This document shows, piece after piece, positions 5,467 through 31,497 of a stretch of DNA of 64,000 nt. Under the pieces are notes generated by a model. That model saw nothing but the letters and a program-made list of their open reading frames with translations. It did no database searches and was not told the DNA's origin. Location of the stretch: positions 90,469 through 154,468 of the forward strand of contig JAFTOD010000006.1 in assembly GCA_017451525.1 (NCBI GenBank), in the 5' to 3' direction. Position 1 is the stretch's first letter, and each line of letters starts with the position of its first letter. The stretch is from Paludibacteraceae bacterium (lineage in GTDB: Bacteria; Bacteroidota; Bacteroidia; Bacteroidales; Paludibacteraceae). Made by a program: the position numbers and the translations under genes.

Positions 5467-7005
5467 CTATTTTATTTTTTTTTGATACTCCGCTTTAAGA
5501 AAAGTGATATTTTGCTTTTTTAGTACTTTATACTCTCCCGGCAAAGAACTTTGAGGTAGAACTTCATAAATAAACAACCAATATCTATCCATATCGCCAT
5601 TTTTTAGATATTCTTCAGCAATATCTTTTAATGTTTTCTGAGCGGCTTTATCTCTCATATGGTTTAATTTTAGGAAGGTCAATAGCAACAGAATACAATC
5701 TTCACTATGTATCGCATAATCAAGAATATTTATTCCGTCTAAATTAAAATTGTATTTAATAGCCCAAGATAGTGCGAAGGAACATGCCTCATAGTTTCTC
5801 TTTTTTATATTTAATTCGTATAAGTTAATTGCAATTTCTTTAATTTTATCTACATTAACATTAAATACAGCAAATATATATTTATCGTACCAATGTACCA
5901 AATATGGATATAATAAAAGTAGATGATGCATCATATCAATGTAGTAGTTCAATGCTTTTTTGCCTAAAACATAACTAGAAACAACTTTTAATACATAAGT
6001 AAAGATAGATGCATTTCCAGTGCTATTAACCAAATTTACAGCTAAATCAAGGTATGCTTTTAATCGCGCGTAACGAAGTAGTTTTTTACCATCATCAGTT
6101 TTATCTTCTCCCATATAAAAACTCGTTAATGCATTTTTCCAATCATTATCAAAAGAAAGTGGCAATCTTGTAATACGGGTTTTCTTGGTATTTAATGCTA
6201 ATTCGTATTTTTTTAATGCACCGACTAAATCTAATATGAATTTTTCAGCTTGTTCTTCACTCTCTGCGTAAAAAGTAATATCATCAATATACCTCACATA
6301 ATCATATGCAGATAACTCATCATCTACAGTTGTTAGTATGATTTCAGATAATAGATTCGATGTATGTGGACCTATTAATAATCCACATGTTTCATTGTAT
6401 TTTATCTTTCTACTACATTCATCTAATTGATTATACCATAAGGTTGTATCTTTATTCGTTTTTGCAATTTGCTTTCCAACTAACGCCCATGATAAAGCAT
6501 GAGAATATATACTTGGGAAACAAGAAGAAATATCTGTTTCTACTTTATAAAATTTTGCAATAGGTTGTTTTTGAATAAATTCTATAGTGTCATTGTCTAC
6601 ATCTTTATAGTTCGTAGACATTTCAAATAAATGGAACCCATTAGTTCGTTTCTGAATATGTACTTGACTTCGTTTAAATTTTTCATGCAAAGTTTTATCT
6701 TGAAAGTGTTGTTTTATATGCGACCAATTATTTGCGATACATATACATAAATTGTAATATGCAAAGGGAGTAGGAATACCAAGTGCTCTTGGTACACTAG
6801 TATTTCGCATGCTATCATAGCGTATATAATCCCATCCCATTTTTGATGTAAACTTTAAAGCATAGTGAGAGTTATCGCAATATTCATAAAATTTTTCAGC
6901 AGTTAGAAAATCTGGTAATTTATCTGCAAACATACCATGTCCTAACAACCCTTTTCTCAATTCTTCTGCTGATAGTTCATCAATATAGTCGTAATATGTT
7001 TTCAT
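5467..7005 (-). CDS. Defence-type (Abi/DRT-like) reverse transcriptase
   Basis: 512 aa. Palm motifs are intact: motif A TDISSCFPSIY (about 157-167, Asp158), motif B CGLLIGPHTSNLLSEI (207-222), and the catalytic YIDD (239-242) followed by KYELALNTKKT. There is no maturase X domain, HNH endonuclease or intron structure. The C-terminal ~200 residues are helical (for example LLLLTFLKLNHMRDKAAQKTL) and unassigned. This build, RT plus a helical C-terminal region, is that of the Abi (AbiA/AbiK/Abi-P2) and other defence-associated reverse transcriptases, rather than group II introns or DGRs. The subgroup cannot be named by eye. It starts 12 bp after hsdS and probably shares the hsdM-hsdS transcript. 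Its AT content is higher than that of hsdM, which fits acquisition as cargo. Confidence 0.85.
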   Translation of the reverse strand: MKTYYDYIDELSAEELRKGLLGHGMFADKLPDFLTAEKFYEYCDNSHYALKFTSKMGWDYIRYDSMRNTSVPRALGIPTPFAYYNLCICIANNWSHIKQHFQDKTLHEKFKRSQVHIQKRTNGFHLFEMSTNYKDVDNDTIEFIQKQPIAKFYKVETDISSCFPSIYSHALSWALVGKQIAKTNKDTTLWYNQLDECSRKIKYNETCGLLIGPHTSNLLSEIILTTVDDELSAYDYVRYIDDITFYAESEEQAEKFILDLVGALKKYELALNTKKTRITRLPLSFDNDWKNALTSFYMGEDKTDDGKKLLRYARLKAYLDLAVNLVNSTGNASIFTYVLKVVSSYVLGKKALNYYIDMMHHLLLLYPYLVHWYDKYIFAVFNVNVDKIKEIAINLYELNIKKRNYEACSFALSWAIKYNFNLDGINILDYAIHSEDCILLLLTFLKLNHMRDKAAQKTLKDIAEEYLKNGDMDRYWLFIYEVLPQSSLPGEYKVLKKQNITFLKAEYQKKIK

Positions 7006-7017
7006 GATTTTATATTT

Positions 7018-8076
7018 TTACGCTTTTATCTCTCCACTCATTAACTTTGGTAATAAAGTGTCGCGGATGGTTGAGAGATTGTTGATTTCTATTGTATTTT
7101 TATCTATCTCATTAAACAGACTATCAAACAAGGATAATTTTTCGTCTATTGAATAAGGAGGCATCGTAAATGTAAAATCGGCAATATTTCCTTTTGTAAT
7201 AAATTTAATTACACTACCTCTACTGCCACCTGTTATTTCTTGTAAATGATATTTAATTAACAAGTATAAGAACGAATGATAGCGTTTTTCGAAAGGAATT
7301 AATACATATGTTCGTTGATATGCTTCAAATTTTCCGATATATCGTTTAACATTGAAATCTCCATTGCCTGCCAATAGTATCGCAGCTCCCTCAAAACTAT
7401 AATTAGGTGCTTTTAGGATGTCTTGTGAGCATGTAAAGAATGGATAAACTCCATCTTTTGTAGAATAATTGGCATCCTTTTTTCCTGTAATTACATTGAA
7501 GAAGTCAGCAAGTCTTTTTGTCTCCCATCCTGTTGAATCTGCATCCACAAACCATGATTTATAGAGTGCTTGGGCTTGTTGTTCGAGATTGGCGTTGATA
7601 CGGCGATTTAATTCGATTTTATCATCTATCGCACTCAATATATCCGCTATGCGCTTCTGCTCCGCAAGAGGAGGAAGAAAGATTTGCCATTGCATTATTT
7701 GACTTTTATCACCACGAGGCATTTTACATCCTTTTGCGCCTGACATTACATAGTCGAAGAACTTTTGTTGGCTCAATAAGTAATATAAATATTTACTATT
7801 TGCTTTCTCATTTGCACGAATGCATAAAACATCCGCAGAGCAAGCTCCATTACAATTTGCCAGCCAAATTTTTTGAAAATATGGTCGAATATTTGATATT
7901 AGCACATCCCCTAATTGATAAGCAATAGCAGAGCCATTTGGAATATTAGATGGAGAAGTGATACCACCTTTATTAGGTAGCATATTTTCAGTAGAGATAT
8001 AGTTTTCTATGTTACAAGTACGACTTGTAACAAATCTACAAATATCGCTTAGGTTATATGTTTCCCAATAATTCAT
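7018..8076 (-). CDS. hsdS: Type I restriction-modification specificity subunit S
   Basis: 352 aa. It holds two target-recognition domains separated by conserved helical regions. The first conserved region is LPPLAEQKRIADILSAIDDKIELNRRINANLEQQAQALYKSWF (about 135-180, quoted only as landmarks PPLAEQ and YKSWF); the second closes the protein with RDTLLPKLMSGEI. HsdS chooses the DNA sequence methylated by HsdM and cut with HsdR. The ATG overlaps the stop of the AbiJ/HEPN-like gene (8073-8076). The first TRD is AT-rich relative to hsdM, as is usual for a rapidly changing specificity gene. No inverted repeats or second hsdS for phase variation are visible. Confidence 0.92.
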   Translation of the reverse strand: MNYWETYNLSDICRFVTSRTCNIENYISTENMLPNKGGITSPSNIPNGSAIAYQLGDVLISNIRPYFQKIWLANCNGACSADVLCIRANEKANSKYLYYLLSQQKFFDYVMSGAKGCKMPRGDKSQIMQWQIFLPPLAEQKRIADILSAIDDKIELNRRINANLEQQAQALYKSWFVDADSTGWETKRLADFFNVITGKKDANYSTKDGVYPFFTCSQDILKAPNYSFEGAAILLAGNGDFNVKRYIGKFEAYQRTYVLIPFEKRYHSFLYLLIKYHLQEITGGSRGSVIKFITKGNIADFTFTMPPYSIDEKLSLFDSLFNEIDKNTIEINNLSTIRDTLLPKLMSGEIKA

Positions 8077-8960
8077 TCTAATTTGCTCCCTAAGTAGTTA
8101 ATAAATGCAGAACAAGAAACCAACATAAATAATGCTTCTTCTCCTCCAGGAGCATATGCACCACTATCATCCATCAATGCATGACGAATACCAGAATCAG
8201 ATTGATTTGTATATGCATATAACTTATCAAATGCTTGTTTTAGTACTGCTGGAAAAACGATTCCATTTTGTTCTAACTTATTTAAGGCCTTCCCCAATGT
8301 GTTCTCCCCCGTCTTTTCTCGACAAAAAGCCTCTACAGCGGAAATAGATTCTTTTATAGAATTGCGATAATCACCCTCTGGTCGTTGTGCGTATAACTCC
8401 AATGCACGATTGAGATGTAGTTGAATGTTACGAGGAGTATTATCAATAGCAGTTTCAATAGTTGCTATTTCCTGTTCTGATGTAATTTCTACGATTTCTT
8501 TATTAACAACACGATATGCAAAATTCAGTCGCTCAAATTCCGAATTGAGCATATCAACAAACATGGAATAAACAGTAACGTTATTGGGGTTAAATCTGTG
8601 TGAATAGTATCTCTCATCATCATCATAAATATATTCTATCACAAAGTCTAATAAATCTATTTTCTCATACCAATTCTTAAATGGTTCTTCAATAAAATCA
8701 GTTGAAACTATAGTAGGATCATAAAAATTAGCATTGAAATTATTTTCTCGTTCATTAAGGAATTGAGTCCATACATACTGTTCTAAACAGATATACCATC
8801 TCCTTCCTTCAGCCTCTGAACATGATCTAACGGAACACACTATTCGTGGAAGTCTGTCAAAACATGTACAAATAGCATTTTGTATTTCTGGTGTAATTTG
8901 TTCACGAATTATCACATCTGAAGCTTTTGTATATCCGTATCTTTCTGAAAATCGAGCCAT
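8073..8960 (-). CDS. AbiJ N-terminal-domain / HEPN-like protein within the restriction operon
   Basis: About 295 aa from the ATG at 8960; a longer frame to 8996 would need TTG and would overlap hsdM. The N terminus, ARFSERYGYTKASDVII followed by REQITPEIQNAIC, matches my recollection of the AbiJ_NTD4 type of abortive-infection domain. The C-terminal half (SIKESISAVEAFCREKTG, LGKALNKLE, then SGIRHAL) looks like an all-helical HEPN-type domain, with Arg-His in the position of a degraded Rx4-6H motif. HEPN domains in defence are often RNases. It lies between hsdM and hsdS, 19 bp after hsdM and overlapping hsdS by 4 bp, so expression is coupled to the methylase. Family assignment is moderately sure; function is inference. 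Confidence 0.7.
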   Translation of the reverse strand: MARFSERYGYTKASDVIIREQITPEIQNAICTCFDRLPRIVCSVRSCSEAEGRRWYICLEQYVWTQFLNERENNFNANFYDPTIVSTDFIEEPFKNWYEKIDLLDFVIEYIYDDDERYYSHRFNPNNVTVYSMFVDMLNSEFERLNFAYRVVNKEIVEITSEQEIATIETAIDNTPRNIQLHLNRALELYAQRPEGDYRNSIKESISAVEAFCREKTGENTLGKALNKLEQNGIVFPAVLKQAFDKLYAYTNQSDSGIRHALMDDSGAYAPGGEEALFMLVSCSAFINYLGSKLE

Positions 8961-8979
8961 ATATTCTGTAACATTTATT

Positions 8980-10482
8980 TTATAATTTATACCCAATACT
9001 TTCTAATTGCTTTTTGATTTCTGCTTCGAGGGTGTGGGATTGCTCGAAGAGGGAAGCGAGTTCGGTGGTGAGGCGAGTCATCTTCTCCTCAAACGGTTCG
9101 GCATCTTGCTCCTGTTCGGCTATACCGACATAGCGACCTGGTGTGAGGATGTAATCTTGCTCGGCAATATCCTTGATATTCTTCACAGCGCAGAAGCCCT
9201 TTTCATCGGTGAGCGTGCCTGCGGCATAAGACTGATAGGTCTGGGCAATGCGCATGATGTCCTCCTCGGTCAGTTCGCGGAGCTTGCGCGTAACCATAGT
9301 CCCCATCTCTCGCGCGTCGATAAAGAGCGTTTGTCCCTGTTGTTTCTTATGGCGATTGAAGAACCAGATTGACACAGGAATACCTGTGGTATAGAACAAC
9401 TGCGAAGGCATAGCAATGATACAGTCCACCAAGTCGGCTTCTACCAATCGTTGGCGTATATCGCCCTCGCCACCCGTCTGGCTGGAGAGTGAGCCATTAG
9501 CCAGCACCACGCCTGCACGACCCGAAGGGGCGAGGTGGTGGATGATATGCTGAATCCATGCGAAGTTGGCATTGCCATCAGGGGGCGTGCCATACTTCCA
9601 ACGTACATCACCCGTCAAGCGGTTACCGCCCCAATCGCTAAGGTTGAAAGGTGGGTTAGCCATCACAAAGTCGGCTTTCAGCGTAGGGTGTTGGTCATCG
9701 AAGAAAGTGTCAGCATTGAACTTGCCGAGATCTGCCTCAATGCCACGGATAGCGAGGTTCATCTGCGCCATCTTCCATGTGGTAGGGTTGCTGTCTTGAC
9801 CGAAAACAGATATATCGTTGATATTGCCTTGGTGGCGTTGGATGAACTTAGCCGACTGCACAAACATACCGCCAGAGCCACAAGCAGGGTCATAGACGCG
9901 ACCGTGGTAGGGCTGCAACACCTCTACCAATGTGCGAACAATACATGCAGGCGTGTAGAACTCGCCCGCGAGTTTGCCTTCTGCCTCGGCGAACTTAGAG
10001 AGGCAGTACTCGTAGGTGCGACCTAAGATGTCCTTCGTGTCGCCCTGCTCGCGCATTTGGATATTGGTGAAGAGGTCCACCACATCGCCCAAACGGCGTT
10101 TGTCCAACTCTGGGCGTGCGAAGTTCTTGGGCAAGATACCCTTTAAGCGAAGGTTCTCCTTTTCGATTTGGCGCATGGCGTTGTCGATGACCATACCGAT
10201 CTCGCTGCTGTGCGCTGCCTCGGCAATAACCGACCAACGCGCGTCTTGTGGCACGTAGAAGATGTTTTCGGAGGTGTATTCATCCTTATCCTCTTCAAAG
10301 CCCTCGCCTTCAGCAAGCAGTTCGTTGTATTTCGCCTCGAAACGGTCGGAGAGGTACTTGAGGAAAATCAAGCCCAGCACCACCGATTTGTATTCCGATG
10401 CATCCAGATTGCCACGCAAGAGGTCGGCTGCTTTCCAAATCTCTTTCTCAAATCCAATATCTGCTGTATTGATGTTAGCCAT
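8980..10482 (-). CDS. hsdM: Type I restriction-modification DNA methyltransferase subunit M
   Basis: 500 aa, full length for HsdM. The N-terminal helical domain (FEKEIWKAADLLRGNLDASEY) is followed by the S-adenosylmethionine site DPACGSGGMF (about residue 200) and the catalytic motif IV NPPF (about 277), which identify an N6-adenine methyltransferase. It pairs with HsdS and protects host DNA. It is first in the operon; its promoter is at 10511-10542. Base composition is higher in G+C than the following HEPN-like, hsdS TRD and RT genes, in line with a conserved core carrying variable cargo. Confidence 0.96.
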   Translation of the reverse strand: MANINTADIGFEKEIWKAADLLRGNLDASEYKSVVLGLIFLKYLSDRFEAKYNELLAEGEGFEEDKDEYTSENIFYVPQDARWSVIAEAAHSSEIGMVIDNAMRQIEKENLRLKGILPKNFARPELDKRRLGDVVDLFTNIQMREQGDTKDILGRTYEYCLSKFAEAEGKLAGEFYTPACIVRTLVEVLQPYHGRVYDPACGSGGMFVQSAKFIQRHQGNINDISVFGQDSNPTTWKMAQMNLAIRGIEADLGKFNADTFFDDQHPTLKADFVMANPPFNLSDWGGNRLTGDVRWKYGTPPDGNANFAWIQHIIHHLAPSGRAGVVLANGSLSSQTGGEGDIRQRLVEADLVDCIIAMPSQLFYTTGIPVSIWFFNRHKKQQGQTLFIDAREMGTMVTRKLRELTEEDIMRIAQTYQSYAAGTLTDEKGFCAVKNIKDIAEQDYILTPGRYVGIAEQEQDAEPFEEKMTRLTTELASLFEQSHTLEAEIKKQLESIGYKL

Positions 10483-20502: not shown

Positions 20503-22587
20503 TTATAATTTTGTAATATCATTTTCGGTTTCACGGAAATGTCTTAAAATAGCTTCTACAAGAATGTTATAGTTTTTAGAATCAGCATTAGAGATAAATT
20601 CTTGGAAATTGATATTTTTATTATTAAATGCTAATACCATAGGATGTTTATCCAAAAAACCAAGTAGTTTGTAGTTCCTTTGGTGCATCATTTGCTGGAA
20701 ACGAATAATAAATGACTTGTAATGTCTATTCCGTCTGATGATTCGTTGCATATCCTTTATAAATACAACTTTCAACACACAATTAGTACGTGCATTTGAT
20801 AACAGATAACAAATATTTACCTCTCCATATTCCGCTTTCAGGTATTTTTTCCACTCTTCATTTACCTTTTGTGCCTCTTTATATTGTTGCAAAGCAAACA
20901 AAGCCATGCTCTTAAGATAATAGAGATGTGTAGAGGGCTGTATTTTCATACCTTGCTCCACATACTTAATTGCAGTATCATACTCTCCATTTTTGATAGC
21001 AATAATCGCATTAATTAACATACTTTGTGAGTTAGATGCACCAAGATATTGGCAGTCTAATGAATGTAAAAGGAACAATTCTGGATTATAAGCAACATCC
21101 ATCAATTGATTTGCGAATAGGTATGCTCTCTCCATATTCTGACTAAGAATAGCATCACGAAGCTGAATCGTTATATATTCCATTGCAGAATCATAGTCTT
21201 GTTTGTACAAAGCATCAAAGTATGTTTTATTATCAGTTATTGCATTTTTAATTATGTGCTCATTCGTATTTTGTTTCATAAATTGATTGATTTCATCTTT
21301 TGGTCGAATGTAGGATGCACGAATAGCAGCTGTAAGTGCTAATCCTTTAAGAGAAGTGACTCGACTTAATGCTACATATAGTTGTCCCGCTGTAAATACG
21401 CCTCGGCTTAAATCAATCTTAACATTATCAAATGTCATGCCTTGACTTTTGTGGATAGTTATTGCCCAAGCCAATTTTAATGGATATTGTGTATAAGATC
21501 CGATAACGACTTTGTTAAGTTTTTTTTGTGCCTTATCGTATTCATATTCGATAGCCTCCCATGTTTCTTGACCTACGGATAATTCCAATCCGCTATCCAG
21601 AGCAACTACAATGTTTTCTTCTGACAAATTTGTAACTGTTCCCAAACTACCATTTACCCAAAAGTGGTCAGAGTCATTTTTGACAAACATCACTCGTGCA
21701 CCCTCTTTTAGAGTTAAATCTAATGGAGCGGGAAAATTGTTTTTGTTAAATTTTCCTTGTACTTTACCTGTATATGTATAAGTGGGTTCTGGGAGTGCAC
21801 TTAGTTTATTTTCATTAATGGCATCTACAGTAGCATTATATGCGCTTAGGGTTAATTGTTTCTCTTTGTCATCTAATATGCAATTAACCATATCATTAGC
21901 CAATCCTGTTATATTGAGTTCTTCTATCTCTTGCTCAATGCTTATACCTTTGCGTATATGATTTAAGATAGAAAGAAATTTTGCATCCTTCTGGCGATAT
22001 ACTTTTTGAAACTCTACACGATAGAGTTGAATTTGCTTGAATACATGGGCATGGAAGAAATAAGGATTAACGGTATTATATTCTTCTTGATAGAAGTCAA
22101 CTAACCCTTCGTTTGTAGTATCATATACTGGATCTAACTGGTACAAATCTCCAGCAAAGATAATTTGTTTACCACCAAATGGAAGAGTATTAAGCATAGC
22201 TGCTCGTAGCACCTTATCAATACCATCAATCATATCACACCTAACCATTGAAACTTCATCAATAATAATGGTATCTACTGCTCGTAAAGTTTCCCATTTA
22301 GAATCATTCAAAGAAAAATCATCTAATGTTGTTTTTGAAGTGATAGGTTCCCATGGCATGCCAAAGAATGAATGTATAGTTGTGCCACCTGCTACAAGCG
22401 CAGCAATACCTGTGGGTGCAACCAATACAAATTGTTTTTTTACATTCTGCTGAATGTATTGCAAGAATGTTGTTTTACCTGTGCCTGCGCAACCAGTCAG
22501 AAAGAAACTGATGTTGGTGTTTTGTACTAAATCTAATGCAAGGCATTGTTCCTTGTTTGTTTTGTCGAAAGCAAATGTTGTATCCAT
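20503..22587 (-). CDS. PIF1-like superfamily 1 helicase with C-terminal TPR-like region
   Basis: 694 aa. Helicase motifs: Walker A GCAGTGKTTF (about 32-41), motif II TIIIDEVSM (about 108-116), motif III FAGDLYQLDPV (about 144-154), and the C-terminal UvrD_C_2 block WAITIHKSQGMTFD ... YVALSRVTSL (about 370-415). These define the PIF1/RecD2 type 5'-3' helicase. From about residue 470 the protein changes to helical repeats (DAILSQNMERAYLFANQLMD, YDTAIKYVEQGMK), resembling TPRs that would bind a partner. The gene starts 28 bp after the 211-aa hypothetical gene and is probably cotranscribed. A housekeeping role or a role in defence are both possible. Confidence 0.85.
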   Translation of the reverse strand: MDTTFAFDKTNKEQCLALDLVQNTNISFFLTGCAGTGKTTFLQYIQQNVKKQFVLVAPTGIAALVAGGTTIHSFFGMPWEPITSKTTLDDFSLNDSKWETLRAVDTIIIDEVSMVRCDMIDGIDKVLRAAMLNTLPFGGKQIIFAGDLYQLDPVYDTTNEGLVDFYQEEYNTVNPYFFHAHVFKQIQLYRVEFQKVYRQKDAKFLSILNHIRKGISIEQEIEELNITGLANDMVNCILDDKEKQLTLSAYNATVDAINENKLSALPEPTYTYTGKVQGKFNKNNFPAPLDLTLKEGARVMFVKNDSDHFWVNGSLGTVTNLSEENIVVALDSGLELSVGQETWEAIEYEYDKAQKKLNKVVIGSYTQYPLKLAWAITIHKSQGMTFDNVKIDLSRGVFTAGQLYVALSRVTSLKGLALTAAIRASYIRPKDEINQFMKQNTNEHIIKNAITDNKTYFDALYKQDYDSAMEYITIQLRDAILSQNMERAYLFANQLMDVAYNPELFLLHSLDCQYLGASNSQSMLINAIIAIKNGEYDTAIKYVEQGMKIQPSTHLYYLKSMALFALQQYKEAQKVNEEWKKYLKAEYGEVNICYLLSNARTNCVLKVVFIKDMQRIIRRNRHYKSFIIRFQQMMHQRNYKLLGFLDKHPMVLAFNNKNINFQEFISNADSKNYNILVEAILRHFRETENDITKL

Positions 22588-22615: not shown

Positions 22616-23251
22616 TTAATTAGCAAAAGCAGTCAAAGCGAGTTTTATCTCCGTAGGATTGTCATAATTTCGGATGAAACTTTTAGCCGCAGCATCATAT
22701 GGTATTTGTATGCGTGATGATGTAAGGAATAGTTGCTCGCCGTTCTCGGAAGTAGATTGCAGTGGATAGTAATCACATCCTACCAAAGACAATCGCTGTT
22801 GGTTAGTAGAAGTGATCGGATAACATTCTACAACTTGCTTGCGCTTGATATTTGTGATGACTGAGTAATGCATACCTCCTTGCGTGGGAATTCGAACGAC
22901 ATCGTATAGTGATAAATCATGTTTATCTTTTATCTTTTTTATTTCATAGAAGAAATTTGCTCTTGCCTTTGCTTCGCGACAAGCCATCGTGCGTAATTTT
23001 TCTTTTCTCACACACAGGAGAGATTTTAATTTATAGAGACTATTGAGTAATGACTGGGGATAGATCTTACATTTGACTTTACTTAGACATATCTGTGCCA
23101 TTTGTAGTGCTTGAGACATGTTTGCTTCAGTTGTAAACTCAACAATAGCATTTAGTTGTTGACAACTTTTTTCCTTGTCAATAGCGTTGGTGTTAATTTG
23201 TTTGATCATCTTCTTCACCATGAAGATTGCTTGATTTAGATCAGTTTTCAT
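22616..23251 (-). CDS. Hypothetical protein cotranscribed with the PIF1-like helicase
   Basis: 211 aa, not recognised. The N-terminal half is helical and basic (QAIFMVKKMIKQIN ... SLLNSLYKLKSLL). The C-terminal half starts at about residue 110 with SLYDVVRIPTQGGMHYSVI and continues through VVECYPITSTNQ. This valine-rich, beta-strand pattern (D-V-V-R-x-P ... H-x-x-V-I-x-N) recalls the small barrel of PemK/MazF-like proteins, but the similarity is weak and catalytic residues cannot be assigned. It lies 28 bp before the helicase gene, so the two products may work together. Confidence 0.6.
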   Translation of the reverse strand: MKTDLNQAIFMVKKMIKQINTNAIDKEKSCQQLNAIVEFTTEANMSQALQMAQICLSKVKCKIYPQSLLNSLYKLKSLLCVRKEKLRTMACREAKARANFFYEIKKIKDKHDLSLYDVVRIPTQGGMHYSVITNIKRKQVVECYPITSTNQQRLSLVGCDYYPLQSTSENGEQLFLTSSRIQIPYDAAAKSFIRNYDNPTEIKLALTAFAN

Positions 23252-23351: not shown

Positions 23352-23380
23352 AAAAAAAAGATGGCAAAAAGTTGCCATCT
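23352..23380 (-). terminator. Intrinsic terminator of the sigma-caspase-CHAT operon
   Basis: On the minus strand, GATGGCAA-CTTT-TTGCCATC is followed by a run of eight T (23351-23359). It lies 34 bp after the CHAT stop codon. Confidence 0.8.
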
Positions 23381-23413: not shown

Positions 23414-26400
23414 TTAATCTAATAATATGAATCCAGCCCAATATTCTGGTTCTTCAAATTTTGCTCGAACGGTATTTTGAGCATTTTTGAAAGCCTCCCG
23501 CTTTGATTGATTTTTACTAATCCAATTGGTATAAAATTCAGTCATCAGCATTTGGGTTGCTTGGTCGTTGACCTTCCATAGACTCATGATGATTGTTTGT
23601 ACACCAGCCATCTTGAAGGCACGCTGTAAACCAAAGATTCCTTCTGAGGTGATATCACCTTTAGCTGTTTCACATGCCGAGAGTACAACAAGGTCTGCAT
23701 CACGCAAATCCATTAATGAGATTTCTTTAGCAGTCAATATACCATCCTGTACACCCTCTGGTAAATCTTTGGAATGACCAGACAGAGCTATGTTACTGCC
23801 AGCAAACAACAAACCGCAACGAGTCAATGGGTCTATGCTTGGTTTTTGCAATTGGTTATCTCCTAACATTTGCAGTTGTATGCGTTGAGAAAAATAATCT
23901 TGTTTTCGAGCAGTACTATCTTCCCAATAGAAGCCATGAGTGCCAATATGAAGAATATTGCGATGTTTACCGCTAAGCGACTTAAATGACTCCTCATTTG
24001 CTTTAGATGCAGTATATAATGTTGATGTGATGTTATTGCTATTCAAAAGTGAGTAAATTGATTCTGCTTCCTTTTTAGTTCCTGGCAGATATAATACGGA
24101 ACCTCGATTTGGCAGTGTGGATGATATGCTGCGGTAAGTAAACATATCTTCCGTATCGTAATTCCGACTTTCTGCAAGCAATGACGTTTTATCTACATCA
24201 TAGAATATGCCGCCATAAATAGTTGCTGTGTGATGTTTGATGCTTTTGTCCTTCTTCACAATTTCTCGTGTTGAGGATAAACGCACCATTGTATATACAT
24301 CAGACATAGTGTGCGTTTGATCATAAGGGATATTCTCTATCGCTATTTGATGTAGTAATCCTGCTGGTGAGAAATAAATCGTTTCTCCTTCATGGATTTG
24401 TGGAAGTATTTTATCCCAAATAAGATTAAAAATTGTTTTAGAATTAGTATCGAAAGTATATATATCATTCGTGCGATTTTGTGATAGACAATTCACAATC
24501 TCTTTTTCTTCACAGAGAGGGATTAACTCAGGATACTGGCTATCGTGCCGAAGTAGCAGAGCGCAATACATCGTACTATCTTCATTTAGTGGTGCAATAA
24601 AATATTCAATAGCTACTTCATCAGGGCTAAGATATTGCTGAATACTATCCCATGTTATAGATTGTTGTTGCTTAGTTTCTCTAAAAATTGCACTTGATTT
24701 TGTGATAATTTTTTCTAACGAATCTGCTTGATTTTTATAATGAACCAAATTAGTAGAAGTGGGATCTTTTTCTTCCAAATTCATAATAACTTGTTTTATC
24801 CCTACTAATTCATTCCATTGTTCTATTAGTATGCTGTCATTACTCTCTAATATTGATTGACGAATAATGTTAGAAGAGGATAGTAGTAAACCTTTGCGGA
24901 ATAGTTCATTATCATAAGCGAAGGTGGAGATAGAGGGTTTGGAGAAGTGGTATTTGTATACATATATAGGATAGATATTGTTAAAACGGGATTGTTCTGT
25001 TTCCCAATACAATTTTCTTTGTTTCTCCGTCAGGTAGTTTAGCGAGTGAGTAAAGTATTTTTGGGAAATTTTTGATGCATCAGTAAAATAAGATTCAGCG
25101 ACATCGTAATTACCATGAAATGCATAATAGCATCCTATATTATTTAAAGAACTTGCATAATCAGGGTGAGTGACTCCTAAGATTGATTTGCGAATATCTA
25201 ATGCTTTTGCAAAATGTATTTTAGCATCATATTTTTCCCCTATTATATCATACAACATCCCTAAGTTATTTCGTATAGTAGCACAAGTAAGATTAGAAGT
25301 ACCAAATTGCTGTCCGTGAAATTCTAACGCTTCATGTAGATAGGTTCGAGCCTCATTGTATATTGCCATATCCATATAGAGACACCCTATGTTATTTAGT
25401 AAAGTTGTATAGTCTGGCGTGAGTATTTCATTTCTTTTAAAAATATCAAGAGCTCGTAGTAAGTATTTTTCTGATATAGAATAATTCTGTAATTCATTGT
25501 ATATAGCCCCAAGGTTATTTAATGTTGCTATTTTATCAAAACTATTTTCTGTTCTTTCTAGTATCTTTAGAGCCATTGAAAAATATTTTATAGCTATTTT
25601 GTAATCACCAATACTAGTGTAAAATGCTCCTAAAGAATTTAATGTATTAGAGAAATCTATATCTCGCACATCTTCTGAACTTTCTTGAATCCTTAATGCT
25701 TCCAATAAATAGTTTTCAGCCTCTTGATAATTACCGATGGCGTTGTAAAATAAACCTAAATTATTTAGAGATAATATGTGTTCAACATGAGATATTGGTA
25801 ATATATTTCTACGAATCCTTAATCCTTCCAATAAATATTGTTCTGCAATATTGAAATTTTCCATATAAAAATAACAGATTCCTAATCCGTTTAGCGACGA
25901 TGCATAATTTCGATTAATTTTTCCGAATATAGTATTCTGGATATTTAATGCTTCCGTATAATATTTTATAGCAGTCGGATAATCACCTAAAGAACTATAT
26001 GTATGCGCTAAGCCTTGTAAAGATGTTACATAGTCAGGATGTGATGTACCTAAAGTATTCTTACGTATCTTCATTGCTTGAACCGCATATGCCTTGGCAC
26101 TTTGATAATCTCCATTGTCATAATATAACACACTTATATCATATAATGTCTCTGCATAAATAGAGTGTTCCAATCCATATATGCATTTGCGCATCTCTAA
26201 AGCTTCGAACAAATATTTTTTAGCCGTGCTATACCTGCCGAGATCATTATATAGTACTCCTAAACTATTCAATGTAGAAGCAGTATAATCATCATCATTA
26301 TTGTTTCTTAATATATCTAACGCTATTAATAAGTGTTTTTCGGCGGATTTATAATCGTTAAGATTGTGGCAACATATTCCAATATTAGCAAGTGTTATAG

Positions 26401-27175
26401 CATAAGTATTATTTGAAGTTCCTAACACTTCCTGTCTTATCTTCAATGCTTCATAAAGAAACTCCTTAGCTTTTTTATAGTTCTTAGTAGATTGATATAA
26501 ATGCCCTAATGTATTTAGTGTGTTGGCAAAATCCAAATTAGTTGTAATATCTGTATTATTTTTTTGTATTACCAATGACTCTAATAAATATGTTTCAGCT
26601 TTATCATAATTCTTAGTCTCTATGTACACACCTGCTAATCCTTCTAAAGAAATAGCATAATCTATGTTATTTGATCCAAATATGTTTTTTCGAAGTTTAC
26701 ATGCGATTGATAGATATTCCTCCGCTTCCTTATAATGTCTTAAATGTATATATACCATTCCTATATTATGTAGTGAGGTTGCAAACTCTGGATGGAAGAT
26801 TCCTATGTGATGTTTATATAATTCTGCTTGAAGCATATAAGAATGTAAAGCTTCTTCGAACTTATTTGTTTGAAAATATTGATGTCCAGCAGATTGAATT
26901 TCTTTACCAATATAGATACACAAACTATCTGCGGAGAAAGATTTGTAGTTTATTGAGTCCATATATTGCAAAAAAGACATAGCTGAACTTATGTTACATA
27001 CATAATCTACATGCCAATTTTCAACTTTATCAATATAACTCAACGCAGATTCATAATCACCACGATTAATAGCATCAATAGTAGAATGTTTATATGCTTC
27101 GCTATTCTGAGCTAGCGATAAAGTAGAAATAATAAGACAGCAGAATTGGAGTAATAATTTTTGCATATACAACAA
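23414..27175 (-). CDS. Secreted TPR-repeat CHAT-domain protease
   Basis: 1253 aa. A signal peptide (QKLLLQFCCLIISTLSLAQ, with the start at the first or fourth codon) exports it. About residues 100-720 hold roughly fifteen TPRs of 40-44 aa of the kinesin-light-chain type (unit pattern A-x-x-L-N-x-L-G-x-x-Y ... Y-x-x-A-x-x-Y-L-x-x-A-L). The C-terminal CHAT domain, a caspase-fold cysteine protease, has the catalytic His in HIGTHGFYW (about 1076) and Cys in VVLSACETAKGD (about 1164). TPR-CHAT proteins act as regulated proteases in conflict and cell-death systems. It is the last gene of a unit with a sigma factor, an anti-sigma-like protein and a second caspase-fold protease, 25 bp after the latter. 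Confidence 0.9.
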   Translation of the reverse strand: MLYMQKLLLQFCCLIISTLSLAQNSEAYKHSTIDAINRGDYESALSYIDKVENWHVDYVCNISSAMSFLQYMDSINYKSFSADSLCIYIGKEIQSAGHQYFQTNKFEEALHSYMLQAELYKHHIGIFHPEFATSLHNIGMVYIHLRHYKEAEEYLSIACKLRKNIFGSNNIDYAISLEGLAGVYIETKNYDKAETYLLESLVIQKNNTDITTNLDFANTLNTLGHLYQSTKNYKKAKEFLYEALKIRQEVLGTSNNTYAITLANIGICCHNLNDYKSAEKHLLIALDILRNNNDDDYTASTLNSLGVLYNDLGRYSTAKKYLFEALEMRKCIYGLEHSIYAETLYDISVLYYDNGDYQSAKAYAVQAMKIRKNTLGTSHPDYVTSLQGLAHTYSSLGDYPTAIKYYTEALNIQNTIFGKINRNYASSLNGLGICYFYMENFNIAEQYLLEGLRIRRNILPISHVEHILSLNNLGLFYNAIGNYQEAENYLLEALRIQESSEDVRDIDFSNTLNSLGAFYTSIGDYKIAIKYFSMALKILERTENSFDKIATLNNLGAIYNELQNYSISEKYLLRALDIFKRNEILTPDYTTLLNNIGCLYMDMAIYNEARTYLHEALEFHGQQFGTSNLTCATIRNNLGMLYDIIGEKYDAKIHFAKALDIRKSILGVTHPDYASSLNNIGCYYAFHGNYDVAESYFTDASKISQKYFTHSLNYLTEKQRKLYWETEQSRFNNIYPIYVYKYHFSKPSISTFAYDNELFRKGLLLSSSNIIRQSILESNDSILIEQWNELVGIKQVIMNLEEKDPTSTNLVHYKNQADSLEKIITKSSAIFRETKQQQSITWDSIQQYLSPDEVAIEYFIAPLNEDSTMYCALLLRHDSQYPELIPLCEEKEIVNCLSQNRTNDIYTFDTNSKTIFNLIWDKILPQIHEGETIYFSPAGLLHQIAIENIPYDQTHTMSDVYTMVRLSSTREIVKKDKSIKHHTATIYGGIFYDVDKTSLLAESRNYDTEDMFTYRSISSTLPNRGSVLYLPGTKKEAESIYSLLNSNNITSTLYTASKANEESFKSLSGKHRNILHIGTHGFYWEDSTARKQDYFSQRIQLQMLGDNQLQKPSIDPLTRCGLLFAGSNIALSGHSKDLPEGVQDGILTAKEISLMDLRDADLVVLSACETAKGDITSEGIFGLQRAFKMAGVQTIIMSLWKVNDQATQMLMTEFYTNWISKNQSKREAFKNAQNTVRAKFEEPEYWAGFILLD

Positions 27176-27200
27176 GAATGATAAAGGTTATTTCCTAAAT

Positions 27201-28055
27201 TTACTTTAATAAATACTGCGTTTTATTATATGCTGATTCTATTATTGGTGTTTGAGTATAAATAATAATCTTTTTTATTGTAGTTTGAATTTCTATTAGT
27301 AATTGTTCGCATGTTATTTCTGTAAGTTTTTCCTTCTGTTGATGTAATGCATAAGTAAGCGATCCAACACCATTATATTCGTAGTTGGATTGATACGATT
27401 TACACGCTGAAATATAAATCCAATTGATATACTCCTCATGATTGGTATATGGTTGTACTTCAAATGGCAATATAAATTTATCTGCAACACCTCGAATGAC
27501 TAATGCTTCTTGTTCTTCACTTCGCCATCCGTCTCCGCTATGACAAGCATCGGCAACTACAATAATTTTTCCAGCATCTCCAATACTCTGTCGTAGTTGA
27601 TATAAATATTTATTGATATCATCATCTAAAATATGATTCTGACCTTCGTAGATTCCTTCAAAATATGTTTTCTGGGCATCAAAAGGAATCCAAGCCTCAT
27701 CCCAACCATCTTCCTCATCTCCATTCAAATCAGTAACCTGTTGGCCATGCCCAGAAAAATGAATATATATAAGATCTCCTTCTTGTACTGAATTTATTAA
27801 TTTATCAAATGCTTGACGAATTGCGCTTGCAGTTGCTTCAGCGTTTTGCAGTTCGTGAATGTTGATATTTGAAAAACCATTGGTATATAATATATCTCAC
27901 ACTAATGGAATATCATTATCGCCGTTGATAGGCTTCCAGCCATTTTCTACTGGATAATCGCCAATACCAACAACTAAAGCATATTTGATTGCCTGACATA
28001 AATCAGTATAGATTAAACAACAAATTAGCAGTACGTATATCCTTATTCTATCCAT
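27201..28055 (-). pseudogene. Secreted caspase-like peptidase (C14) interrupted by one in-frame TGA
   Basis: The reading frame from the ATG at 28055 gives 284 codons with a single TGA at codon 53 (27897-27899). Upstream it encodes a signal peptide (RIYVLLICCLIYTDLCQA) and KYALVVGIGDYP, the first caspase strand. Downstream it keeps the catalytic His in YIHFSGHGQQ (about 102) and Cys in VADACHSGDG (about 170). Homologues usually have Val-Arg-Asp there, so CGA to TGA is the likely change. No frameshift is seen and the rest is well preserved, pointing to a recent mutation, a sequencing error or (less likely) readthrough. It lies 5 bp after the anti-sigma-like gene and 25 bp before the CHAT gene. 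Confidence 0.8.
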
Positions 28056-28060
28056 ACGAA

Positions 28061-28741
28061 TTAAAGTTTGTCTAATACCATTTGAGCGCGCTCCGCATAG
28101 TAACTGTCGCTATTAGCAATCTGTTTTAAGAGTTTCTTAGCCTTTAGCACTTTACCATTGTGCATTTCGCATATTGTATGAAGCCATTGTGCTTGGTCAA
28201 ATATCTCTTTTGTTTCAGGAGTGATTTTTTGTTGAGAAGATTGTATTTGATCTATCAGTCGCAATGCAAGTTCGTTGGCTTGGTCAAATTGATTTTGAGA
28301 GATATAACTATACACAAAGAATAGTTGATTTTGTAACTCGTCGGATTGGTCGTTAACGCCTCTTGTAGAAGGAATAGTAATAGAAGCAGCAAATTCGCTA
28401 CTTTCAGTTTTCATCATTCTTGCCATAGGCGTTAATATGACGGCTAACACTATAATAGCAGAAACAAATGAAGAACTTATGCCCCAACTAGAAAGTTTAA
28501 TAATACGCTTAGTACGAAGACGTTGTGAGCGTATTTGCTGTTCTTTCTGTTGTAGGCATTCTTTCAAGCCTCGTGCTTGAATAGCGATGATGATTTCCTT
28601 TTGTAAATCCACTTCTGAAGCTAGGTCTTTATCCCCTAATGACTCGGAAGAGGTGGAAAGTAACCTCTCGAATTGATTTTTTTCGTCTTCTGTCAATTCG
28701 TTGCGGAGGTATTTATCTATTAAATCAGTATTGTTCGCCAT
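28061..28741 (-). CDS. Membrane anti-sigma-factor-like protein with TPR-like periplasmic domain
   Basis: 226 aa. The N-terminal cytoplasmic part (DLIDKYLRNELTEDEKNQFE, 6-25) matches the short helical start typical of Bacteroidota anti-sigma regulators (x-x-I-x-x-Y-L-x-x-x-L-x-x-x-E). A basic stretch (QRLRTKRIIK) precedes a transmembrane helix (about 85-106, ISSSFVSAIIVLAVILTPMA). The C-terminal ~100 residues are helical with a TPR feel (NQFDQANELALRLIDQI, KVLKAKKLLKQI). The predicted topology is cytoplasmic sigma-binding end and periplasmic sensor. It lies 7 bp after the sigma gene. Anti-sigma function is inferred from topology and position. Confidence 0.75.
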   Translation of the reverse strand: MANNTDLIDKYLRNELTEDEKNQFERLLSTSSESLGDKDLASEVDLQKEIIIAIQARGLKECLQQKEQQIRSQRLRTKRIIKLSSWGISSSFVSAIIVLAVILTPMARMMKTESSEFAASITIPSTRGVNDQSDELQNQLFFVYSYISQNQFDQANELALRLIDQIQSSQQKITPETKEIFDQAQWLHTICEMHNGKVLKAKKLLKQIANSDSYYAERAQMVLDKL

Positions 28742-28748
28742 ATCAATA

Positions 28749-29297
28749 TTATGCTTTAAAGAGGTTTTTGAGTTTGTTCATGCATTTGTTTTTTTGTGTT
28801 TTCGCACTATTGGCGTTGGCATAGCCCAATTGCTGAGCAATAATATCCCATGACAGTTGATCCCAGTAGAATTTTAGCAATAATGGAGCGCAAGGTTTAC
28901 CCATATTGTTTACAGTATCTTGAATAGCTCGATTGCGTTCGGTGATTTCATATTCTTCAATACTATCATTGGTGTCATCGGGAAGCTGTGGAAGTTCTTC
29001 AATAGAAGTTTCTTTTTGTTTGCGGAGTTGCTCTCGTAGTACATTTTCGCCTATTCCATATAAATAGCCACCCATATTAGTTGTTATAGTTTCAATAGTA
29101 ATTCTATGTCGTTGAATATTTTCCCATAAACGAATAATGGTGTCTTGATATATATCAGCTAGAAAGTCTTCATCTGTAATGGTGTATTTAGAAGAAAGGA
29201 GTTGCTTGAAACTTCTTTCGTGTTGTTCATAGAACAAGGAAATAATGCGCTGGTCATTATTCTGAAAAGCTTTGAAATATTCGGCAGATGTAATCAT
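28749..29297 (-). CDS. ECF-like RNA polymerase sigma factor
   Basis: 182 aa. The sigma-70 region 2 is seen in DEDFLADIYQDTIIRLWENI (about 42-61) and region 4 in LKFYWDQLSWDIIAQQLGYANANSAKTQKNKCMNKL (about 140-177; landmarks LSWDIIAQQLG and KNKCMNKL). The HTH consensus is somewhat diverged, as in many Bacteroidota ECF factors. It is the first gene of the unit anti-sigma-like, caspase and CHAT protease, under the promoter at 29323-29354. The sigma factor probably drives its own operon and/or distant targets once freed from the membrane regulator. Confidence 0.85.
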   Translation of the reverse strand: MITSAEYFKAFQNNDQRIISLFYEQHERSFKQLLSSKYTITDEDFLADIYQDTIIRLWENIQRHRITIETITTNMGGYLYGIGENVLREQLRKQKETSIEELPQLPDDTNDSIEEYEITERNRAIQDTVNNMGKPCAPLLLKFYWDQLSWDIIAQQLGYANANSAKTQKNKCMNKLKNLFKA

Positions 29298-29322: not shown

Positions 29323-29354
29323 CAAAGGTAAGAAAAATTTACTTAATATGCAAA
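29323..29354 (-). promoter_or_regulatory. Promoter of the sigma-caspase-CHAT operon
   Basis: Minus strand: TTTG (29351-29354), 20 bp, TACCTTTG (29323-29330), 25 bp before the sigma ATG. It is of the ordinary housekeeping type; an additional site for the encoded ECF factor was not recognised. Confidence 0.75.
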
Positions 29355-30438: not shown

Positions 30439-31458
30439 TTAGTTCCCTGATTCTAACTGGAGAAGTTGGTCAAAATCGGATTGATATAAACGGTCTTGAA
30501 TAACACGATATTTTTCAAACTCACTTTCTGCAAATGCTTTCGCCACTTCCGCACTTATCTTGCCCTTGTCTTGCAATATCGCCTCATCATTAAACTGCAA
30601 AAAAGCATCCAACTTCTTTGCCCAATCTTCCATCGTCATAGGTATCTGCTTTTTAGCCTGACGCTCAGCATAATCCAAATACATCGTAACAATCTGATTG
30701 AGGTCGTCTAATTCAACCAAAGACAGATAATTCTTAGCCACACTCACATCCGCACGGACAATCTTGCCATTAGGCGCATTCTTCCATGATGTCAACCCCA
30801 TGTGCTCCTTCTCCGCATTGGCACGCTGCATAATCACCTCAGCAGCCGTATTACCATGAATAGCAAAGTGCAACTTATTCTGAACCGTTGCAAAAAACTG
30901 CTTCGTAATCAATGCGTCTCTATTGTAATCCACCGCAGTAGCATAAATATCTGTAATCTTCTGATAGAACTTGCGTTCGCTGGCACGAATCTCACGAATC
31001 TCATCTATCAAATGGTCGAAATATGCCTCGTTAAAGATTTGCCCGTTCTCCAAACGTTGTTTGTCCAATACATACCCTTGAACAGCAAAAGTCTTGAGCA
31101 CATTAGTCGCCCATTGGCGGAACTGCGTAGCACGAATCGAATTGACTCTATACCCCACAGAAATAATCGCATCCAGATTGTAGAAGCGCTGTTGCCTATT
31201 CACTTGGCGAGAACCCTCTTTTTGAACTACCGAGGATTCCTCGGAAGTTGCATTTTCATCCAATTCGCCCGAAGCAAAGATATTCTTCAAATGCAGGGCA
31301 ATATTATCTACCGAGCAATCAAAGAGCTGCGCCATCGCCTTTTGTGATAGCCATACATTCTCATCATGCACACGCACTTGGATGGTATCCTCTGCATTCT
31401 GCTTGGTAAACACCAAAAAGTCTGTTGTACTATTACGGATTTGTATTGTCTTGCTCAT
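30439..31458 (-). CDS. RhuM family protein
   Basis: 339 aa from the ATG at 31458. The N-terminal region has the conserved RhuM pattern: IQVRVHDENVWLSQKAMAQLF, then NIALHLKNIF, then RQVNRQQRFYNLDAIISVGY with RVNSIRATQFRQWA. RhuM was first noted in a Salmonella pathogenicity island; homologues are widespread and often sit near restriction systems, toxin-antitoxin genes or phage remnants, but their biochemical role is unknown. The N-terminal part looks like a DNA-binding (winged helix / Bro-N-like) module. Its promoter is nearly identical to that of hsdM, and both genes follow a copy of the same dispersed repeat. Confidence 0.88.
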   Translation of the reverse strand: MSKTIQIRNSTTDFLVFTKQNAEDTIQVRVHDENVWLSQKAMAQLFDCSVDNIALHLKNIFASGELDENATSEESSVVQKEGSRQVNRQQRFYNLDAIISVGYRVNSIRATQFRQWATNVLKTFAVQGYVLDKQRLENGQIFNEAYFDHLIDEIREIRASERKFYQKITDIYATAVDYNRDALITKQFFATVQNKLHFAIHGNTAAEVIMQRANAEKEHMGLTSWKNAPNGKIVRADVSVAKNYLSLVELDDLNQIVTMYLDYAERQAKKQIPMTMEDWAKKLDAFLQFNDEAILQDKGKISAEVAKAFAESEFEKYRVIQDRLYQSDFDQLLQLESGN

Positions 31459-31497
31459 TATCAATTTGGATTTTAGTTAAAGACACGCTTTAGCCTG

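Follow-up and report, generated by a model that had tools for sequence, protein, structure and literature searches.

A sigma factor, a membrane anti-sigma protein, and caspase-fold protease genes in one Bacteroidales operon: a candidate envelope switch

The window, a 64,000-nucleotide stretch of contig JAFTOD010000006.1 from a Paludibacteraceae bacterium (GCA_017451525.1), carries four co-directional reading frames on its minus strand, where all features described below also lie. They encode an ECF sigma factor, a membrane anti-sigma protein, a C14 caspase frame, and a TPR-CHAT protein, with intergenic gaps of 7, 5, and 25 bp. Upstream of the sigma gene is a promoter (29323..29354) consisting of TTTG (29354-29351), a 20 bp spacer, and TACCTTTG (29330-29323), a pair that fits the Bacteroidota housekeeping-type consensus. 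The operon ends at an intrinsic terminator (23352..23379) made of the hairpin GATGGCAA/TTGCCATC and a T run, read from 23379 to 23352. This agrees with the first-pass annotation, which had described four genes with gaps of 5-25 bp, one promoter (29323-29354), and one terminator (23352-23380). The promoter is also present in the closest relative, locus L261; it lies within the 69 bp 5' of the sigma gene, which belong to a block 95.3% identical between the two. An ECF-type autoregulatory promoter was considered and rejected, because no common ECF motif could be seen by eye in the upstream sequences of 38 genes; a housekeeping-type look was apparent, again by eye, in the window, L261, L046, L278, and L063.

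The sigma factor (28749..29297, 182 aa) matches TIGR02937 with an E value of 8e-13 and 48.4 bits against a cut-off of 42.9, which places it among the ECF sigma factors; its score for Pfam sigma region 2 (22.7 bits) is slightly below the cut-off of 24. It is 97% identical to the L261 sigma over 173 columns, and the sigma/anti-sigma DNA of the two loci is 95% identical. The 1.84 Mb genome holds eight sigma-70-family matches, five of them above the cut-off, and the chance expectation of finding a sigma gene on the same strand within 2.5 kb of a given gene is about 1%. A viral origin was also set aside, as a search of viral_contigs with the sigma protein returned no relative.

Next to the sigma gene lies the gene for the putative anti-sigma protein (28061..28741, 226 aa), which has no match in Pfam or NCBIfam at 0.001. 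Hydropathy and an AlphaFold2 model (mean pLDDT 86.4) give it N-terminal helices, a single transmembrane (TM) helix, and a predicted periplasmic helical, TPR-like domain. The TM segment covers residues 88-106 (28424..28480; Kyte-Doolittle 2.16 over 19 aa) and is spanned by a modelled helix of residues 89-120. This helix is followed by a linker, non-helical in the model (residues 121-131, 28349..28381), that contains R127-G128 (28363-28358), the candidate cleavage site discussed below.

The caspase frame (27201..28055) is of the metacaspase type and starts with an N-terminal signal. Read through, it matches PF00656 with an E value of 2.5e-16 and 60.5 bits against a cut-off of 21.4; H103 and C171, the His/Cys dyad, fall in invariant columns of our alignment A1, and 10 of 11 solved relatives among the matches listed are named metacaspases. 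The frame is interrupted by an in-frame TGA at 27899-27897 (codon 53). Since TGA terminates 6 of the 47 non-overlapping window ORFs of at least 150 aa, it appears to be an ordinary stop in this genome, which does not favour stop-codon reassignment and leaves either an interrupted gene copy or an assembly error. L261 has no caspase gene at the corresponding place, and both genomes encode other C14 proteins elsewhere. The idea in the first-pass annotation of two working proteases in this operon is thus not supported.

The last gene (23414..27175) encodes the TPR-CHAT protein, with an N-terminal signal and 1253 aa from a TTG start (an ATG is found at 27166). Its CHAT match has an E value of 4.8e-45 and 154.7 bits against a cut-off of 24, its TPR_12 match an E value of 3.1e-96, and the columns of His1080 and Cys1168 are invariant in all 27 hand-picked CHAT domains of alignment A5, as expected of a TPR-CHAT protease. 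Compared with L261 in steps of 50 residues, the protein shows 12-58% amino acid identity up to residue 750 and 92-100% thereafter; the catalytic half is about 97% identical overall, and at the DNA level the TPR half, a putative sensor (residues 1 to about 714, 25033..27175), gives only scattered repeat hits. Judged from these alignments, the TPR half has been exchanged relative to L261 and the catalytic half retained. In L058, two tandem CHAT genes are 90% identical in the catalytic part and 34% in the N-part. A loop of variable sequence that precedes YLPGTK in the CHAT domain (24092..24160) contains R-S (R1015) and N-R-G (R1024 at 24106-24104), and could be a processing site; R[GSA] occurs in this loop in 25/27 picked domains. 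In a permutation test, anti-sigma and CHAT-loop sites showed no locus-specific match (matched 2.44, permuted 3.18). By a simple hydropathy rule, an N-terminal hydrophobic segment is present in 78/84 CHAT proteins and 88/95 caspases. By simple patterns, the expected dyad is missing from 15/84 and 13/95, respectively, with 6 of the 13 caspases differing only as DACHSSG.

It had been suggested that the four-gene order be sought in other Bacteroidales, and we find the linkage conserved and the order rearranged. Among 80 named Bacteroidales loci collected by caspase alone, 58 have a same-strand sigma gene within 2.5 kb, 58 have a CHAT gene within 6 kb, and 76 have one or the other, counts that rule out a chance neighbourhood given the expectation of about 1%. 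Only 3 further sigma-type matches occur in the 887 kb of these loci, a contrast that is inflated because the sigma HMM was partly trained on them. A same-strand CHAT gene within 6 kb is absent from 22/80 loci, some of which end at contig ends; 18 of the 22 have a sigma gene (16 CASP-SIG, 2 CASP-SIG-LIPO), and in L099 and L105 a CHAT gene lies on the opposite strand. An uninterrupted run of sigma/anti-sigma/caspase/CHAT is found again in L038-L040, which carry a distant sigma type, in L049/L102 (one place), and in L094, L096, and L271. Leyella stercorea An906 (L117), which is available as a strain, has caspase, sigma, and anti-sigma genes on one short contig, and relatives such as L057 and L060 have an intact metacaspase. 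Elsewhere the order varies, with five changes of the caspase-first label forced by starred branches. Up to two of these may reflect mislabelling of L076 and L118 as CASPdown, a consequence of the overlap between their predicted sigma starts and the caspase gene; the caspase actually precedes the sigma in both. The operon caspase is gone and CHAT is kept in L261 and L278, and three genomes (G330, G443, G187) have no C14 match at all and still hold sigma, anti-sigma, and CHAT together.

Most anti-sigma proteins in caspase/CHAT loci have an Arg (rarely a Lys), usually followed by Gly, about 24 residues past the TM helix. The R127 column of a 39-row alignment (A4) holds 37 R and 2 K, Lys being the only substitute, and is the joint best-conserved column; after clustering at 50%, R is kept in 28/29 rows. 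This alignment was hand-picked, with 35 rows including the window from a set of 96 anti-sigmas and 4 from another set, omitting rows shorter than about 180 aa and a few unusual ones. Of the cases removed to arrive at the 96, 12 were sigmas without a downstream ORF of 90-450 aa, in 1 the downstream ORF was a caspase or CHAT, 2 had their TM at the N-terminus, 1 had no TM, and 3 were identical anti-sigmas. In 79 of those retained, a caspase or CHAT lies no more than 6 kb away, in 6 there is none at that distance, and 11 are undecided; the 79 include two doubtfully paired cases, L090 (first sigma) and L197, which are counted as misses.

Within these 79, R[GSA] occurs past the TM in 70 (shuffle mean 34.5, maximum 45 in 300 shuffles) and RG in 56 (shuffle mean 11.7, maximum 20), compared with RG in 8/79 control windows just before the TM and 12/79 at the C-terminus. 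FecR anti-sigmas, used as a further control, show RG in 2/30 and R[GSA] in 6/30. The median position is 24 residues past the TM peak (quartiles 20-26). In the nine proteins that lack this motif, just KG (3) or RD (6) is seen, but widening the pattern to [RK][GSAD] does not discriminate, as it is found in 79/79 past the TM but also in 66 before it and 70 at the C-terminus. R[GSA] is retained in 12/12 anti-sigmas with tails of at most 80 aa, which argues against a mere helix cap. RG is more frequent with a caspase (50/67) than with CHAT only (5/14; Fisher p 0.009), a difference confounded by phylogeny. R[GSA] is also present in 3/6 anti-sigmas that have neither protease within 6 kb, although a trypsin HMM matches one of these three proteins, and in 7/11 undecided ones; in a wider set, 16/20 with partner "none/unknown" have RG, RS, KG, or RD. 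The Arg site is therefore a property of the lineage rather than proof of a partner.

Those C14 members other than animal caspases that had been characterised up to 2017 prefer Arg or Lys at P1 (PMC5756287; PMC6426788). Combined with the conservation in the sequences, this makes R127 the predicted cut point.

We consider it somewhat probable (roughly 55%) that the operon encodes an envelope sigma switch in which a caspase-fold protease acts as the site-1 protease and a cut in the anti-sigma frees the ECF sigma. Gene pairing and predicted topology suggest that the anti-sigma, which adjoins the sigma gene and has one TM helix, would retain the sigma at the inner membrane. The exported TPR-CHAT protein, joined in relatives by a periplasmic metacaspase, would sense a periplasmic signal through its TPR half; once activated, the protease would cleave the linker, which lies just beyond the membrane, on the C-terminal side of R127, and by analogy with RseA the leftover stub would be degraded and the sigma released. 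The conserved linkage, the statistics and linker position of the Arg site, C14 specificity for Arg/Lys, the export signals, and the C14-less genomes speak for this switch. It is weakened by the broken caspase, the 22/80 loci without CHAT, the presence of the site in partnerless anti-sigmas, the negative permutation test, missing dyads in some proteases, and the other C14 genes elsewhere in the genome. The earlier proposal of a periplasmic cut fits the predicted topology and the conserved Arg-Gly in the modelled linker. Because the operon metacaspase is interrupted here, CHAT probably acts independently of it, as would be the case in relatives lacking this gene, and another C14 protein encoded elsewhere may help. 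To our knowledge, few natural substrates of bacterial caspase homologues have been identified, and R127-G128 is a prediction of such a substrate at the level of a single residue.

More tentatively, and with the odds somewhat against it, the switch may receive its input from a cascade of exported metacaspase and TPR-CHAT with exchangeable TPR sensors, a periplasmic, CRISPR-free counterpart of Craspase signalling. Such a cascade would cut at Arg-Gly in anti-sigmas and perhaps also in the CHAT loop. A narrower form, which we think doubtful, is that TPR-CHAT itself cuts at Arg and the metacaspase is either an activator or booster of CHAT (for example, at the R-G of the CHAT loop) or unrelated, and so easily lost. 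Retention of CHAT in L261 and L278 is consistent with this, as are the C14-less genomes, where the Arg site is kept (RG in G330 and G443, RD in G187) and CHAT may suffice, and the frequency of RG in the CHAT loop (41/76 loops vs 47/379 control windows). However, the 18 sigma-bearing loci among the 22 without CHAT, even allowing for contig-end cuts, the higher frequency of RG with caspase, and the fit of the R-to-K-only substitution to C14 specificity all speak against it.

It also seems unlikely that the proteases are sigma-driven outputs directed against outside or damaged targets, with Arg-Gly cleaved by some widespread envelope protease or serving a structural role. Co-transcription alone cannot separate input from output, the trypsin-like protease and lipoprotein added in many loci resemble an effector set, and in L281 the sigma/anti-sigma pair precedes many exported proteins. 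Against this, the operon promoter is of the housekeeping type rather than an obvious ECF promoter, the TPR half differs from L261 when sigma, anti-sigma, and catalytic half are nearly constant, and the Arg site persists in short-tailed anti-sigmas. Least probable is a defence or cell-death module, in which infection or damage would trigger the proteases to kill or to induce defence genes through the sigma: a Drt4 reverse transcriptase and a PDC-S05 gene occur in the same window (PADLOC) and the L058 tandem joins one catalytic type to different N-parts, but both proteases carry export signals, domain searches found no recognised toxin or pore family among the four genes, PADLOC matches within the operon were limited to single caspase and TPR models, and the sigma has no relative in viral_contigs.

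Returning to the envelope switch, one of its closest known parallels is Craspase (type III-E), in which the TPR-CHAT protease Csx29, the sigma inhibitor Csx30, and the ECF sigma CASP-sigma are encoded together and the sigma is proposed to be released when its inhibitor is cleaved (PMC10028731). TPR-CHAT, ECF sigma, and inhibitor-like genes are likewise side by side here. Unlike in Craspase, both proteases carry export signals and the product of the inhibitor-like gene is a one-TM membrane protein; a phmmer search of PDB chains with the window CHAT domain returned no Csx29 chain, and no Cas matches were found among the scanned operon proteins. The type III-E parallel drawn in the first-pass annotation is therefore a resemblance of logic. 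If the switch is real, the same logic, a protease freeing an ECF sigma, would operate without CRISPR and on the far side of the inner membrane, and caspase-fold proteases would be linked to transcription in gut and rumen Bacteroidales, most of them uncultured.

ECF54 sigma genes adjoin genes for CHAT-domain proteins, as here, and are described as lacking an anti-sigma (PMC8999054), whereas here an anti-sigma-like membrane protein follows the sigma. In Myxococcus and its relatives, too, a prokaryotic metacaspase shares an operon with a sigma-70 gene; these operons come from other phyla, and the passages of PMC3501461 that describe them mention no anti-sigma, CHAT, or cleavage site. We also weighed a C-terminal NRG in the lipoprotein of our loci (29/32 rows listed) as another place of cleavage; it may belong to a conserved strand and is not claimed.

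In the proteolysis of RseA by DegS and RseP, an inner-membrane anti-sigma with a periplasmic domain undergoes site-1 cleavage in the periplasm and then intramembrane cleavage. The anti-sigma described here has a similar predicted topology, with a predicted site-1 cut just outside the membrane, and differs in that the predicted site-1 protease is CHAT or a metacaspase, not DegS. RseA/DegS is also mentioned in the Craspase paper (PMC10028731). Trypsin-like proteases do occur in some of these loci.

The four minus-strand frames of the operon (sigma factor, 28749-29297; anti-sigma, 28061-28741; caspase frame, 27201-28055; TPR-CHAT, 23414-27175), with their short gaps, promoter and terminator, agree with the first-pass annotation. 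Domain searches assigned the first to the ECF sigma factors (TIGR02937, 48.4 bits) and matched both TPR and CHAT in the fourth protein; for the anti-sigma, Pfam and NCBIfam gave no match at 0.001. The main correction concerns the caspase: it is a C14 caspase (60.5 bits) when read through an in-frame TGA at codon 53 (27899-27897), a normal stop that terminates 6 of 47 ORFs in the window. Past the TGA the frame can still be aligned over its full length to 17 relatives, with its catalytic residues preserved, which points to a recent break or to an assembly error. Among the 11 relatives of the caspase listed with a solved structure, ten bear the name metacaspase. Given the interrupted copy, the system in the window is best viewed as a sigma/anti-sigma/TPR-CHAT module whose metacaspase is probably decaying. 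The window genome, a draft of 1.84 Mb that is 84% complete, has one more C14 match elsewhere and two more CHAT matches, both at contig ends. These ends (G000:C5:1-822 and G000:C7:5-133) break within the CHAT matches, perhaps representing one additional CHAT gene split by assembly.

Linkage of these genes across Bacteroidales is well supported. We scanned genome contigs with a caspase alignment, without the sigma factor as a query; of 329 relatives the best 80 were retained. Relatives found in this way carry names of Paludibacteraceae and other Bacteroidales and come in many cases from rumen or gut samples. Within these best 80 of 329, a sigma factor of the module type lay within 2.5 kb on the same strand at 58 caspase loci and a CHAT gene within 6 kb at 58, with no CHAT seen in that range at the other 22; both were in range at 40 loci and at least one at 76. 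Outside those positions the same loci held three module-type sigmas in 887 kb, a generous contrast, since part of the training set of the sigma HMM came from these loci. The window genome has eight sigma-70-family matches, five of them over the cut-off (TIGR02937), and from this count one sigma nearby would be expected by chance in about 1% of cases. The commonest arrangement among the best 80 of 329 was caspase, sigma, (anti-sigma), CHAT (19/80), followed by caspase and sigma with no CHAT seen (16/80). The gene order originally proposed recurs contiguously in L038-L040 (with a distant sigma type), L049/L102 (one place), L094, L096 and L271. On the sigma tree, starred branches force five changes of the caspase-first label, up to two of which could be due to two mislabelled rows.

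Searching by sigma at 1e-10 gave matches in 24 of 178 genomes at genus level, window genome included, and in 64 of 149 at order level. A wider set of 40 stretches was fetched, 38 from the order-level search and two around L005/L006, and many of them place a sigma/anti-sigma pair beside CHAT without a caspase, the CHAT in most cases lying on the other strand (for example L198, L205, L206, L212, L218, L223, L224, L227, L231 and L236). C14 searches at 0.001 found no match in three genomes (G187, G330, G443).

The loci also vary in their partners. In many, a trypsin-like protease and a lipoprotein-like protein of 230 aa are present as well; the latter is a conserved caspase partner (L043 2924-3631 and 37 other HMM matches). 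Close to its C-terminus 29 of 32 printed rows have NRG, and its sole domain match is a weak one to a PPC domain. At L199 7173-8243, L203 194-1285 and L204 8344-9402, a module-type sigma is followed by a membrane protein matching a trypsin-like protease, which looks like a fusion of anti-sigma and protease (Pfam was run on L199 only). At L281 344-12516, sigma and anti-sigma precede a long series of proteins that are probably exported, one or more of them carrying a Fib_succ_major domain; a C14 caspase with the same orientation comes next. The caspase also has a second, distant sigma type as a neighbour: upstream of the caspase in L106, L111 and L114, on a long starred branch of the sigma tree, and in L038-L040, which gave weaker sigma matches.

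A conserved Arg site in the anti-sigmas is likewise well supported. Most anti-sigmas of these loci share an Arg and a small residue just beyond the TM helix, the Arg lying a median of 24 residues past the TM peak (interquartile range 20-26). Where a caspase or CHAT gene lies within 6 kb, R[GSA] occurs in 70 of 79 anti-sigmas (300 shuffles: mean 34.5, maximum 45) and RG in 56 of 79 (mean 11.7, maximum 20); in the same 79 proteins, RG occurs in 8 over the 45 residues before the TM helix and in 12 over the last 45. The nine that depart from R[GSA] carry KG or RD, a broad pattern that is not discriminating. FecR-type anti-sigmas, used as a control, have RG in 2/30 (Fisher p 6e-10) and R[GSA] in 6/30 (Fisher p 1e-11). 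Where both proteases are absent from the surrounding 6 kb, R[GSA] occurs in 3/6 pairs, and in 7/11 of the undecided ones. In a hand-picked alignment of 39 anti-sigmas (mean column identity 24%), the column of R127 is R in 37 rows and K in two, tying with A219 as the best conserved, and R is retained in 28 of 29 rows after clustering at 50%.

An AlphaFold2 model of the anti-sigma (mean pLDDT 86.4, pTM 0.58) places the TM helix at residues 89-120 and a confident helical domain from 132 onwards; the stretch between them (121-131) is non-helical and includes R127-G128. Anti-sigmas with tails of up to 80 residues keep R[GSA] in 12 of 12 cases (by eye, as RG-x-[DE]-x-x-F in nine), which argues against the site being a mere TPR-helix cap. 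Animal caspases aside, the characterised C14 enzymes favour Arg or Lys at P1 (PMC5756287, PMC6426788). The Arg is a candidate cleavage site; we infer that the anti-sigma may be cut, and the cutting agent, the signal and the regulon are likewise putative.

As to which protease, the site reads RG 5, RS 4, RA 3 and RD 2 at 14 loci with CHAT and no caspase, RG 50, RS 6, KG 5, RD 4 and RA 2 at 67 loci with caspase, and RG 8, RS 4, KG 3, RD 1 and none 4 at 20 loci with neither seen. An Arg site is retained beside CHAT without a caspase, so its persistence does not depend on the caspase. The Gly preference with caspase (p 0.009) is confounded by phylogeny. The CHAT domain has a variable loop with R[GSA] in 25 of 27 rows of a picked alignment and RG in 41/76 loops (shuffle mean 12.8, maximum 22) compared to 47/379 control windows. 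The loop may be processed, but matching of loop site to anti-sigma site locus by locus was tested and was negative.

L261, the closest relative, is 95.3% identical over 1306 bp spanning promoter, sigma and anti-sigma. It has no caspase at the locus, where 9 bp separate anti-sigma and CHAT (two C14 matches lie elsewhere in its genome), and its TPR array differs from the window's. Similarity resumes at window 25032 (CHAT residue about 715) and runs via a 211-aa gene into a Pif1 gene (89.7% over 3769 bp); in the CHAT protein, identity rises from 12-58% to 92-100% per 50 residues, with 488/503 residues identical past position 750. Two tandem CHATs in L058 share 90% identity over the catalytic part and 34% over the N-part. 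Two cases, L261 and L058, thus give the impression of interchangeable sensors attached to a constant output, and the TPR half may sense something. Other tandem pairs (L073/L269, L083, L125) are just 40-51% identical in the catalytic part and thus little informative. The TPR half of the L261 CHAT also holds a 126-bp tandem repeat of 9.8 copies (L261 8298-9536); the same search of the window found no such array.

A literature search that covered listings and the papers named here found no description of a Bacteroidales module combining ECF sigma, anti-sigma, C14 and CHAT; the sigma group may already be numbered in the main ECF classification. Related systems are Craspase (PMC10028731), ECF54, whose sigma occurs with CHAT but without an anti-sigma (PMC8999054), metacaspase operons with sigma-70 in Myxococcus (PMC3501461), and caspase/ECF neighbourhoods with EACC2 domains (PMC8195603).

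Around the module, the 211-aa protein (22616-23251, minus strand) between CHAT and helicase has no Pfam or NCBIfam match; it is 97% identical in L261, the only match at 1e-10 among the compared loci. The Pif1-type helicase that follows (20503-22587, minus strand) has a TPR-like C-terminal part, and relatives of it also come after CHAT in L261 (68%), L048 (46%) and L265 (45%). About 1.1 kb upstream of the module, a RhuM-like protein (30439-31464, minus strand) matches PADLOC PDC-S05 (8.6e-156). A Drt4 reverse transcriptase of defence type (5467-7005, minus strand; PADLOC 2e-175) adjoins putative type I restriction genes at 7018-10482, named by reading the sequence.
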